Assembly (NCBI GenBank): GCA_030529855.1 | Contig: JAUMWC010000002.1 | Location: 1 to 64,000, forward strand | Reading direction: 5' to 3' | DNA: 64,000 bases | From: Gemella sp. | GTDB lineage: Bacteria; Bacillota; Bacilli; Staphylococcales; Gemellaceae | Shown here: positions 670 to 17,545 of the stretch, piece by piece | Position numbering within the stretch: position 1 is the stretch's first letter | Layout of the letters: the number at the start of each line of letters is the position of its first letter | Position numbers and translations under genes: made by a program | The notes under the pieces: model-generated | What the model was told of the DNA's origin: nothing | Databases searched by the model: none | What the model saw: the letters and a program-made list of their open reading frames with translations, nothing else

Positions 670-1933
670 TTATTTTTTTATTTTTTTATTTTGTTTACTA
701 ACATCCTCAAATAACCTGAATACAATTAATATCCTTAATCTAAAATTGTAAAATGATGCATATCCATAAGATACTCTCTTTATTATTTTTATCTTATTAT
801 TTATTCCTTCTAATATTCCGTTTGAGTATGGATATTTAATGCTGTTTATCATATATTTTTCATATTTTTTAATAGTCTTTATCGCTTTTGTTATTCCTTT
901 TGAGTAATTTTTGTGTTTTATCTTTTATACTTTCTTTGAATCTTTCTACATTTTTTTGTTTTTAATGCGTATCTTATGTCTTGCATTATTTTATAGTTGG
1001 CCGCTAATGTTTTGTCTAGTGAGAGTAAATAATCTAATACTTGTTTGATACTGTTCTTCCAAATGTTTTCGAATAGTGTGTTTTTGCGTATTGTATTTCT
1101 GTTTCATCTTTTAGTAGTAATTTCCAGTATTTCTTTAGCTTTGTATAGTTTCCTTTTTCTTTGTTTTTATATCTGTTCATTATTTCTATTCTGTATTTAT
1201 TGAATTCTCTATTGACATTTTGTACTATTGGGAAGAGTTCTCTTATTAATTTCATGTAGGGTGGATATATGTCTATACTTATTGTTTGTACTTTTTTTCT
1301 TATTTTTAAGGGTATTCTTATAAAGTAGTTTTTTAGTTTGGTGTAGTTTCTCGCATCTACTATGTCTATTAGCCTTCCTGTTTCTGCATCTGCGAAGATG
1401 AAACTCATTTTGTTTTCTGCTGTTTTTATTTCGTCGAAACATAGATTCCTTAGTAAGTCTTTGTAGGCATTGTGTTCTATGTACTTACTTACAGCCTGCA
1501 TTGTTCTTATTACTGGACTTTGGGATATGTTTAGGTCTTTGGCTATGTATTTGTTTGATAGTAGTTCCTTTAATTTTCCTAGCATTGTTGCTTTTACTTG
1601 GTTTGATATGTTGCAGTTTTTTTCTACTAGTCTTGTCTGTGCTGTGAATTTTTGTTTACAGTTTTTACATTGATATATTTGTTTTTTTAGTTTTAGTATT
1701 ACTGGTAGTTCTGATGTTTTTAATAGTTTTATTTTTGTTTCTCTGTGTCCATTTTTTACTATTTTCTGGTCTTCTTTTTTACAGTTTGTACATCTACAGT
1801 TTTCTACATCATAACTTAATGTTCCTTCTATTATCTGTGTTCTTTGTCCTTTTATTATTTCTTCTTGTATTTCTCCTTTTATTTCTATGTTTTCATCTTG
1901 TATTTGTAGTAGTTTTTTGATAGAATTAGCCAT
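670..1933 (-). pseudogene. ISL3-family transposase, frameshifted
   Basis: The first 299 codons (1034-1933) read as an ISL3-type transposase. They carry an N-terminal zinc-ribbon with two CxxC pairs (CTNC near residue 50 and CKNC near 94), a helix-turn-helix-like segment and the start of the DDE domain (FADAETGRLIDIV, then SIDIYPPY). The frame then breaks near 1076. The expected continuation (VLDYLLSLDKTLAANYKIMQ) is in another frame. Further shifts occur near the A-run at about 950 and again near 900. The conserved C-terminus (YPYSNGILEGINNKIK) reappears in the 670-852 frame. An intact protein would be about 420 residues. So this is a dead copy with two, probably three, frameshifts. Clear terminal inverted repeats were not identified. 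Confidence 0.9.
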
Positions 1934-2028: not shown

Positions 2029-2062
2029 AAATACGAGGGATGTTTTTTCATCCCTCGTATTT
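2029..2062. terminator. Strong bidirectional stem-loop terminator
   Basis: A perfect 14-base stem (AAATACGAGGGATG) closes a TTTTTT loop and is flanked by A/T runs. It lies between the AbiH operon end and the transposase start and could stop transcription from either side. Confidence 0.75.
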
Positions 2063-2134: not shown

Positions 2135-2449
2135 TTATCCCTTAATTTCGAAAAAATCTTTGGCTAATTTTTCTGCTTTAGTAAAGTTAAACATATCAGC
2201 ATTATATAAATAATAATTCCACTCCGGATCCCCTATTGTTCCGGCGATATAGTTAGCCTCCAAATTTGAAAATAATTTTCGTAACGCTTCTTCGCCATGT
2301 TCAATCAAGTTTGAAGTAACTAAACCACCACACTCTCCTTCATAAATAATTCCTCTATTTAAAAAATTATTTTTTAAGTTTTCAAATTCTCCTTTGCTCT
2401 TAAATTTTTCTTCAATTTCAACTGGATTTTTATACCATTCATTTACCAT
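2135..2449 (-). CDS. Small protein of unknown function coupled to abiH
   Basis: A 104-residue soluble acidic protein that I do not recognise. The start is set at the ATG at 2449 because AAGGAG lies 7 bases upstream; a longer frame back to 2479 has no such site. The start lies inside the last codons of the AbiH gene (11-base overlap), which predicts translational coupling. A terminator follows. No membrane segment, signal peptide or metal motif is visible. The sequence contains CGGLVTSNLIEHGEEAL in the middle and IAGTIGDPEWNYYLYNAD near the C-terminus. Context suggests an accessory or regulatory partner of the phage-defence protein; that role is inference only. Confidence 0.75.
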   Translation of the reverse strand: MVNEWYKNPVEIEEKFKSKGEFENLKNNFLNRGIIYEGECGGLVTSNLIEHGEEALRKLFSNLEANYIAGTIGDPEWNYYLYNADMFNFTKAEKLAKDFFEIKG

Positions 2450-3623
2450 AAATGTACTCCTTAATACTCTTTCTATCACTCAATTTAAATGCATCTAAGT
2501 TCTTTTCGCGAGTATACTGAACAATTGCAATTTTTGAATGTAATTTATCTCTGTCTATTACTATATCATCTGACATAGCAAGATTTATAAAATCATCTAT
2601 TACTCTTTCTTTTGTTTCATTAATCTCATTTTGATAATACTTATATATTATTAACTCAGAACTTGTTGTTAATAATGCCCCTAGTATATTACTCCACCAC
2701 CAATAATCACTATTTCCTAATGACATACCATATATAATAAATAAATCTGTTTCTTTAAAGTATGATTTATACTTTTTGTCATTTTGTGCCCAATAAGGTT
2801 TTAAGTAATACTTGGCTAATTCTTTATTATTAGTTATTTGATTCTTATTATCAAATCCAAATAACATTGATTTAGGAACATTTTGATAACCATGCGGATG
2901 TCTTATATTAGTCATTAAGTAACATGAAAAAATTGTACTACTATTAAATTTACAATAATTGTTTTTATAATTATTTGGATTAACATAATAATTTATTTGC
3001 CTGTCTACAGTTTTTCTCGGTTCTGGATCAAATTGTATTTTATCTAATGTTAATATGTTATCCAACAAGGAAGTATAATTGAAATTTAAAATTTCCCAAT
3101 TAAATAATTTATAATGATCTACTTCAGATGGAAAATTTAATTTTTTATAGTCTTCTTCACTAAGATCTCCTAAAAATCGAGTAAAAGAATTTACAGCAAG
3201 ATTCCTCTCTGTGCTATCACTTCCTAATCTTGCTAACATTTCTGGGGTAACTATTTCATTTAAAAAATTAGAAAATTCCTTTTGAAACCTGTCAAAATCA
3301 ATAGCTAATTTTTTGTCATCTATTTCTTTATCTTCGTTAAATATTTCAATTAAACTATTTTCAAAATCACTCCAATTATTCTTCATATTGTGATTATATT
3401 CATTTTCTTTTTTATCTTGTTTCATTTTTCTGAATATTATATTTTTATCATCAAAATTTTTATAGCACAAATATTTATAAAAATTCTCATATGAGGTTCT
3501 GTAAGGTGAGCTCAAATACTCCATCAATTGCATATCTACACCATTACCAAACAAAGCTAAAATATTAATTTGTCCATCATCTAATGCAGAAAATTCTTCG
3601 TTCGTATACTTTATAAATCCCAT
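2439..3623 (-). CDS. abiH: AbiH-type phage abortive-infection protein
   Basis: The 394-residue protein matches the AbiH family pattern. It has NILALFGNGVD at residues 20-30, SPYRTSYENFYKYL right after it, NNWSDFE near 82-88, NFNYTSLLDN at 180-189, HPHG at 242-245 with SMLFGFDN following, and a C-terminal FIIYGMSLGNSDYWWW at 295-310. The G-N-G-x-D, NFNYT and HxHG motifs recall SIR2-like nucleotide-binding folds; that fold assignment is inference. AbiH proteins are known to give phage resistance by abortive infection. The gene has its own promoter, AGGAAA upstream of the ATG, and overlaps a small downstream gene. It sits beside IS debris, as defence genes often do. Confidence 0.88.
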   Translation of the reverse strand: MGFIKYTNEEFSALDDGQINILALFGNGVDMQLMEYLSSPYRTSYENFYKYLCYKNFDDKNIIFRKMKQDKKENEYNHNMKNNWSDFENSLIEIFNEDKEIDDKKLAIDFDRFQKEFSNFLNEIVTPEMLARLGSDSTERNLAVNSFTRFLGDLSEEDYKKLNFPSEVDHYKLFNWEILNFNYTSLLDNILTLDKIQFDPEPRKTVDRQINYYVNPNNYKNNYCKFNSSTIFSCYLMTNIRHPHGYQNVPKSMLFGFDNKNQITNNKELAKYYLKPYWAQNDKKYKSYFKETDLFIIYGMSLGNSDYWWWSNILGALLTTSSELIIYKYYQNEINETKERVIDDFINLAMSDDIVIDRDKLHSKIAIVQYTREKNLDAFKLSDRKSIKEYIYGK

Positions 3624-3659
3624 ATTATAATTTCCTTTTATTTATTTTGAATTTATTAT

Positions 3660-3688
3660 ATTATAACACTTTTTATTTTGAGTATCAA
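3660..3688 (-). promoter_or_regulatory. Promoter of the abiH operon
   Basis: TTGATA (3683-3688), 17 bases, TATAAT (3660-3665) on the minus strand, with TGT directly before the -10. Predicted start near 3653, about 30 bases before the abiH ATG. Confidence 0.7.
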
Positions 3689-3766: not shown

Positions 3767-3799
3767 AACACCCATCAACTACATTAGTTAACAGGTGTT
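3767..3799 (-). terminator. Terminator at the end of the dead flippase gene
   Basis: An imperfect stem pairs AACACCCATCAACTA with TAGTTAACAGGTGTT and is followed by TTTTTGATT on the minus strand. It overlaps the last codons of the flippase remnant. Confidence 0.6.
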
Positions 3800-5242
3800 C
3801 TCATATAAATATTCAATTCTACTTCCATATTCTCTATTTCTAATACAAATTCATTTTTGAATAGTCTTAGTACTATATAATAAACTACAAAGAATAAAAT
3901 TGATGATGTTACTAGAATAGAGAAATCTCCTTCAAAGAATTTCACACTTAATAGCGATGCAAATGATGCTAATATTAGAGATATCGCCATAGAAATATAG
4001 TTTGTTCCCTTAACTATATCAGGTAACATATCTCTTATAAAGTACATCTGTACAAGTAATACTGCCAGTTCTGCTGCCAAGTTAGCATAGGCTGTTCCTA
4101 CATAAGAATAAATAGGAATTAACCACCAGTTTATCAAAGCATTAACAATAGCACCTACTACCACAGAATACACAACTAATTTTTCCTTCCCTAAAAGTAC
4201 TAAAATCTGAATTCCAAACAAATTAGTTATTCCTATAAAAATAACCGTTGGTAAAATTAATTGCATTGGCAATATTGATTCCTAGAATGAATCTCCTGCT
4301 AAAAAGTATATAGCTTCTTTTGAATAAAGTATAAAATACACAGTTACTGAAAAAGCTAATACTAGAATAAACTTGAATTATTTATTACTTAACTCTAAAA
4401 ACTTCTCTCTTTCTCCATTCTGAATATAAAAAGATAATCTAGGTAGTAAGACTGTTCCCAAAGCTGTAACTATACTTAATAATATGTATTTCACCTTAAC
4501 AGATGTATTATAGTAACCTACTTCCGCGTCTCCATGTATAAACCCAAGCATTACCGAGTCAAGATTAGTATAAATTGTAGCAGCTGCGGATAAAGCAAAT
4601 AAAACTAAGATAGGTTTCATGTGTTGTTTAAAATCATAATCTGTTCTCAACTTATAAAACTGCACGTGTTTTCTAATATTAATAAAATTTAATAAACTTG
4701 ATGCTGAACCTGCAAAAATAGTTACCATCCCATAAATTATATAATCAGATTTGTCATGTACAAACAAGAACATTAAACAGATACCAATCACCTTAAAAAC
4801 AAGAGATCTAACAGTTATATAAAAATATTCTTCTAAAGACTTATACAACCATTCCATCCCTATAAGATTAAAAGCAAGTGTAGAGGCAAATATTAGAAAT
4901 AAAATTCCTTCTTCATTAAACTTATCTACACTAATATAAGCTATAAATAAAGCTATATACACCACAATACTCATTACAAAATTTATAAAAAATATCTCTT
5001 GTACGGTCTTAGCAAGTTTTTCTTTGTCATTTCTTACTTTAGCACAAGCTCTAATACCATAAGTAGGTATCCCTAGCTGAGCAAATAATGAAAAATATGC
5101 TACTACTGAAGTAAAGAAAGTAATCTTCCCTACACCGTCTGCTTGCAAAACTCTAGATATAAGGAAATGTAAGCAAGGGAAAAAGAAAATTCGATGCTGT
5201 TAACAGCATATTCATTACAAAATTAAATTTTAACGACTTCAT
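3784..5242 (-). pseudogene. Wzx-type polysaccharide flippase, inactivated copy
   Basis: The remnant aligns end to end with the intact flippase at 16097-17545; for example both carry ADGVGK, GIRACAKVR and KTVQEIFFIN. The ATG at 5242 and about 30 codons read well (MKSLKFNFVMNMLL onward). Then a 2-base deletion in a TA run near 5158 (TATATC against TATATATC in the intact gene) shifts the frame. Two in-frame stops follow: TAA at 4378-4380, where the paralogue has serine, and TAG at 4282-4284. Three independent lesions mean a fixed pseudogene, not a switchable one. The rest of the frame is still open, so decay looks fairly recent. Confidence 0.93.
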
Positions 5243-5316
5243 TTTATATAAACTCCAAATTTGGAATTACTCTAATTATATCATAGATAATGGTAATATC
5301 AATATGCCCAAAATAA

Positions 5317-16096: not shown

Positions 16097-17545
16097 TTAT
16101 CTTCTTATCATCCTTATAATTTGATGCTCAACATATAAAATGAATTTATTTTTAAATATTCTTAATATTATGTAGTAAATCAGGAAGAATATACTTGCTG
16201 AAATTACTAAAATTAGAAAGTCTGAATTTGTAAATTTCAAGCTATATAGCGAAAGGAAACTTGCGATTGGTAATGCCATTAGTATTGGTAAATAATTGAC
16301 ACCTTTTACTATTTCCTTCACTATATCTCTAATATAATAAACTTGAACCATCAATACTACTAATTCTGCAATTAAATTAGAGAACGCTGTCCCATAATAT
16401 GCGTACCTTGGGATGAGATATATATTAAGCGCCAAATTTATAACTGCACCTACAATTACCGAATATAAAACTAATCTCTCTTTTCCTAACGGAACTAAAA
16501 TCTGTAATCCAAATAAATTAGAAATACCAATAAATACTACTGAAGGTAATAAAATCTGCATTGGTAATATGGATTCATTATAAGTACTTCCTGCTAGTAA
16601 GTGTATAACTTCTTTTGAAAATAATATAAAGTAGACCGTTAAAGCCACAGATATTATCATTATAAACTGAAATGATTTATTAGATACACCTATAAATTTG
16701 TCTCTCTCTCCTCTTTCTACATAATACGACAATCTAGGGAGTAGTACACCACCTATCGAAGTAACTATCCCTAAAAGAATTCCCTTCATTTTAACTGATG
16801 CATTATAATAACCTACTGCTGCATCATTATGCATAAATCCTAACATTACAGTATCCAAGTTAGTGTAAATTGTTGTTGCACATGTTAAAGCAAAAAATAC
16901 TAATATCGGCCTTATATGTTTTTTTATATTATAAAAACTTCTTATTTTATAAAAATCTATATGTTTTCTGATATTAATAAAGTTCAAAATATTTGATGCT
17001 GATGATGCAAATATACTAATTGCACCATAAATCAAAGTATCCTCTGTATCTTTAACAAACAGCACCATCATTATTACTGCTATAAACTTGAAAAATATTG
17101 ACCTTGTCGTGATATACTTATATTCTTCCAAGGCTCTGTATAACCACTCCATACCAAAGGAGTTTAATAAAACTGTTATACTTATTATTAAAAATAATGT
17201 CGAATTCTCCCTAAGTCTATCTATACTAAAACATAATATCAATAATACTGTATAGGATATAATTGTCATCACTGTATTTATAAAAAATATTTCTTGAACA
17301 GTTTTTGCTAACTTTTCTTTGTCATCTCTAACTTTCGCACAAGCTCTAATTCCGTATGTAGGTACTCCTAATTGTGCAAACATTACAAAATATGCAACTA
17401 TTGAAGCAAAAAAAGTTACTTTCCCTACACCATCTGCTTGTAACACTCTAGATATATAAGGAAATGTTATTAAAGGAAATAAAATTGATGATACAGTCAG
17501 TATCATATTCATAATAAGATTAACTTTTAATGATTTTAACCCCAT
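16097..17545 (-). CDS. wzx: Wzx polysaccharide flippase (locus 1)
   Basis: A 482-residue MATE/MOP-superfamily flippase with about 12-14 membrane helices. The N-terminus reads LKVNLIMNMILTVSSILFPL and is followed by PYISRVLQADGVGKV, GIRACAKVR and ANLDTVMLGF-like segments typical of capsule flippases. It would move the lipid-linked repeat unit across the membrane. It follows wzy by 4 bases. The decayed copy at 3784-5242 is its close paralogue in the same orientation, 11 kb downstream. Confidence 0.93.
   Translation of the reverse strand: MGLKSLKVNLIMNMILTVSSILFPLITFPYISRVLQADGVGKVTFFASIVAYFVMFAQLGVPTYGIRACAKVRDDKEKLAKTVQEIFFINTVMTIISYTVLLILCFSIDRLRENSTLFLIISITVLLNSFGMEWLYRALEEYKYITTRSIFFKFIAVIMMVLFVKDTEDTLIYGAISIFASSASNILNFINIRKHIDFYKIRSFYNIKKHIRPILVFFALTCATTIYTNLDTVMLGFMHNDAAVGYYNASVKMKGILLGIVTSIGGVLLPRLSYYVERGERDKFIGVSNKSFQFIMIISVALTVYFILFSKEVIHLLAGSTYNESILPMQILLPSVVFIGISNLFGLQILVPLGKERLVLYSVIVGAVINLALNIYLIPRYAYYGTAFSNLIAELVVLMVQVYYIRDIVKEIVKGVNYLPILMALPIASFLSLYSLKFTNSDFLILVISASIFFLIYYIILRIFKNKFILYVEHQIIRMIRR

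Follow-up and report, generated by a model that had tools for sequence, protein, structure and literature searches.

A SIR2-type AbiH gene and an overlapping small gene from a very rare family in Gemella sp.

In the Gemella sp. contig JAUMWC010000002.1 (assembly GCA_030529855.1), an AbiH-type gene and a small gene lie one behind the other on the minus strand and overlap by 11 bases (2439-2449) in different frames. Positions are those of the analysed window, which comprises 64,000 nucleotides of this contig, and the main features are collected in Table 1. The small gene carries its own Shine-Dalgarno sequence, AAGGAG, placed 7 nt 5' of the ATG; the coordinates and this motif thus bear out the 11-base overlap and the strong ribosome site described in the original prediction. 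The same prediction had given the AbiH-type gene a promoter of its own, and an extended -10 promoter is indeed found at 3688-3660. Eleven of its 12 positions match; 1.4% of 160-base Markov sequences score as high, and 0.07% when the TG is also required, which makes the promoter better than expected by chance in that sequence.

Table 1. Features of the abiH locus, in window coordinates.
Feature	Position	Strand	Description
ISL3-type transposase gene	1034..1933	minus	PF01610 E 1e-12, PF14690 E 1.7e-9
Terminator hairpin	2029..2062	minus	14-bp perfect stem and T-run
Small gene	2135..2449	minus	104 aa, pI 4.8, very rare family
abiH	2439..3623	minus	394 aa, putative SIR2-fold effector
Extended -10 promoter	3660..3688	minus	TTGATA-17-TATAAT upstream of abiH; 11/12 matches, TG before -10

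Downstream of the small gene, the hairpin is strong (dG -21.2, z -7.9), in agreement with the proposal that one common terminator ends both genes. The hairpin itself, however, belongs to an approximately 175-base segment (about 1899-2074) that abuts the operon, recurs with 93% identity on contig C28 and also takes in the start of the ISL3-type transposase gene. Because it lies in this insertion sequence-linked repeat, the terminator came with the mobile element and not with the gene pair; it serves both genes in effect, though brought by that element. Movement of the AbiH pair by the ISL3 element was considered and rejected, as the repeat stops about 60 bases short of the small gene's end and the genome holds no second copy of the pair. 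The transposase gene is split into two open reading frames (670-1933), so this copy of the element looks inactive. A perfect 34-base inverted repeat (443-476) lies between the window start and the element. On the other side of the operon, a polysaccharide flippase gene (3784-5250) is broken into at least two frames, and a stretch 69% similar to it is present at 16446-17536 of the same contig.

The larger protein was identified as AbiH by its match to Pfam PF14253 (E 5.9e-20; 72.9 bits against a gathering cut-off of 30.9), which aligns residues 24-326 with model positions 3-258 of 260 and confirms the family assignment made from the sequence. PADLOC models did not detect the AbiH system of the window. 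AbiH has been known since 1996, and its mode of action is listed as unknown; in S. thermophilus, AbiH systems are active against phages of one genus (PMC12322248). Three motifs stand out in the Gemella protein, namely G26-N-G-x-D30, N180-F-N182-Y-T184 and H242-P-H244-G245. In an alignment of 29 AbiH proteins, G26-N27-G28-x-D30 and H242-P-H244-G245 (H244-G245 in 29/29) are invariant, while N180 and N182 are kept in at least 90% of the sequences, N182 in more than 90%. Judging by motif order, these conserved Asn and His positions would match SIR2-type catalytic residues, N182 and H244 probably forming the catalytic pair. In two homologs (L009 1719-2837 and L028 3998-5116), DFCYT stands in place of NFNYT and the candidate catalytic Asn is thereby missing; a GmrSD_N (DUF262-type) gene within 25 bp after both homologs might be a source of another activity. 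An AbiH fragment in Streptococcus sp. UBA6071 (L039 24-1687) is found 38 bp upstream of a gene for a C-5 cytosine DNA methylase.

AlphaFold modeling of AbiH, with an alignment drawn from the genome loci only, yielded a model with pLDDT 85.2 and pTM 0.87. A Foldseek search with this model returned a single match under 0.001, the SIR2 protein of Nezha (8j4u, 9.6e-5), followed by ThsA. In a structural re-alignment (VIA), the highest scores went to SIR2 proteins from Nezha, Kongming, Thoeris, DSR2 and Avs5 (Z from 12.4 to 8.6), the best match covering 255 residues at an rmsd of 5.0. A PDB sequence search with the AbiH profile gave no SIR2 match by sequence. The matches to the Rossmann-type SIR2 fold, together with the conserved Asn/His motifs, support the SIR2-like pocket that had been read from G-N-G-x-D, NFNYT and HPHG. 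As far as the predicted structure goes, the SIR2 reading holds, yet it has a precedent: AbiH was named a predicted component of the Sir2 superfamily in a 2012 paper (PMC3506569). By analogy with its fold relatives, AbiH most likely responds to a phage trigger by consuming NAD+ or a nucleotide derived from NAD, and may well be a self-sufficient, single-gene abortive-infection effector.

The small gene is genuinely coding: its coding score of 0.247 bits per codon falls with the real genes of the window (0.229 +/- 0.121) and not with wrong frames (-0.338 +/- 0.214), and 104 stop-free codons would arise by chance with a probability of about 2e-4. Searches with its product against Pfam, NCBIfam, PADLOC, PHROGs and PDB gave nothing below E 0.1, consistent with the earlier description of a partner of no known family. 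Single-sequence AlphaFold modeling of the small protein gave a pLDDT of 37, too low for the model to be used. One true relative was identified, a 116-aa protein of a Streptococcus prophage (L076, G543:C33:9933-10268), which matches along its full length at 45-50% identity (E 9e-21) and scores 88.6 bits, compared with 23.5 for the best of 200 shuffles. The two proteins have the same start, and the alignment begins at residue 1, which supports the start assigned to the small gene. They share the core EFENLK...G-I-I-x-E-G-x-C-G-G-L-V-T-S-x-L-I-E-H-G...WNYYLY, and the relative is likewise acidic (pI 4.4). In the prophage, the relative follows two serine integrases; it is part of the lysis end, among amidase, holin and tail proteins, and stands 28 bp before a gene for a 478-aa PIN_12 protein; it thus precedes its neighbor, whereas the Gemella small gene comes after AbiH. 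Relatives of the PIN gene were sought in phages, plasmids, viral contigs and 279 Streptococcus genomes, and only the gene itself was recovered.

The search for the small protein covered 157 genomes of the order, 399 of the class, 398 of the phylum (with a two-sequence profile) and 284 of Streptococcus, one genome per species, together with plasmids, phages and pattern scans run over 84,980 species and over viral contigs. In these more than 1,200 genome searches, with overlapping sets, no relative besides the prophage protein was found. Weak matches inside large unrelated open reading frames, in a FolB-like frame (L049) and at L079 were attributed to chance by their size, reading frame or stop codons.

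To establish whether the pair is conserved, an AbiH alignment scan of 84,980 species was run; it returned 38 loci, and with genomes, plasmids and phages the collection reached 43 distinct AbiH loci besides the window. A relative of the small gene was present at 0 of the 43 in the fetched flanks, searched by tblastn and the two-sequence profile at maximum sensitivity, with the contig of one locus (L032) stopping just after AbiH, so that its downstream side falls outside the view. The three closest AbiHs (S. mitis SK667, S. infantis DD18 and Streptococcus sp. Marseille-Q0941) are 60-65% identical to the Gemella protein, and the about 150-280 bases behind them hold neither a small gene nor a remnant of one. 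The possible two-gene AbiH defence system put forward in the original prediction is therefore not supported as a conserved unit: lack of the small gene beside AbiH elsewhere is the outcome that this prediction had itself named as refuting, and the proposed check for the 104-residue family beside AbiH genes elsewhere led instead to a sole relative that adjoins a PIN-domain gene. Fusion of the small domain to an AbiH relative was also considered, and none was seen in the alignment. The Gemella AbiH extends about nine residues past its two closest relatives, and this extension spans the small gene's ribosome site, which is what a junction with an added gene would produce. The three closest AbiHs each begin 18 bp behind a gene reading as parE. 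This arrangement in three Streptococcus species (L010, L011 and L012, about 3982-4001), in which AbiH is inserted behind the parE-like gene and has a streptomycin-adenylyltransferase-like gene after it at varying distance, is a possible insertion hot spot.

Since other AbiH genes lack this neighbor and its sole relative sits beside a different enzyme, the small gene looks like a passing companion and not a fixed partner. We consider it somewhat probable that the locus combines a single-gene, SIR2-type AbiH with a small cargo gene that, in this lineage, has been attached to the 3' end of abiH. The small gene would then encode a real, translated acidic protein, carried as cargo and derived from a mobile source (prophage or island), expressed with abiH yet neither a required nor a co-evolved subunit. 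Two observations count against cargo: the 11-base overlap and the strong internal ribosome site give a tight coupling such as genes for cooperating proteins often show, and each of the two members of the small family has a gene of the toxic-effector type no more than 30 bp away.

As both members directly adjoin effector-type genes, the small protein could be a transferable modulator (of an immunity, antitoxin-like or activating kind) that pairs with different toxic defence effectors, SIR2-type AbiH here and a PIN-domain nuclease in Streptococcus, and binds the effector or its trigger to set its firing. We regard this as unlikely, although both members are small, acidic and co-directional with the effector-type gene, which they overlap or approach within 28 bp, the core of the family is strongly conserved, and some SIR2 effectors do have a separate partner (Nezha HerA, KomBC). 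The two cases amount to a lead only, and they differ in gene order, after AbiH against before PIN; SIR2 and PIN effectors offer no obvious common surface for one protein to bind, and the nearest AbiHs do without the small gene. That the small protein is the founding member of a rare mobile family attaching to unrelated toxic effectors (SIR2-type AbiH, PIN nuclease) and controlling them in phage defence is a more doubtful proposition still. A small protein modulating both a SIR2 and a PIN effector would, if real, be an unusual shared regulator, whereas mere cargo would be an ordinary finding. Similarly doubtful is an orphan immunity gene against a secreted polymorphic toxin of competing bacteria, carried along as cargo unconnected with phage defence. 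Such a role would suit a small, acidic product that occurs sporadically in two Firmicute lineages and is encoded in mobile regions, but the protein matches no Pfam or NCBIfam immunity family, and no toxin gene was recognized beside either copy. An obligate two-gene AbiH system with the small protein as required co-factor, as first proposed, draws on the overlap, the separate ribosome site and the common promoter and is very improbable, given that the small gene is missing at all the other AbiH loci, the three closest included.

Compared with known systems, the single-gene AbiH with joined cargo that we favor agrees with the AbiH family of Lactococcus and Streptococcus abortive infection, to which the Gemella protein belongs over its whole length and with which it shares the conserved GNG-D, NFNYT and HPHG motifs. 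Those relatives are single genes, whereas the Gemella abiH has an additional overlapping small gene behind it. The SIR2 effectors of Nezha (SIR2-HerA), Kongming (KomB), Thoeris (ThsA), DSR2 and Avs5 resemble AbiH in predicted fold and in the order of motifs and NAD pocket elements, although sequence identity is only about 9-15%. Unlike these effectors, AbiH has no HerA, KomC, ThsB or STAND partner.
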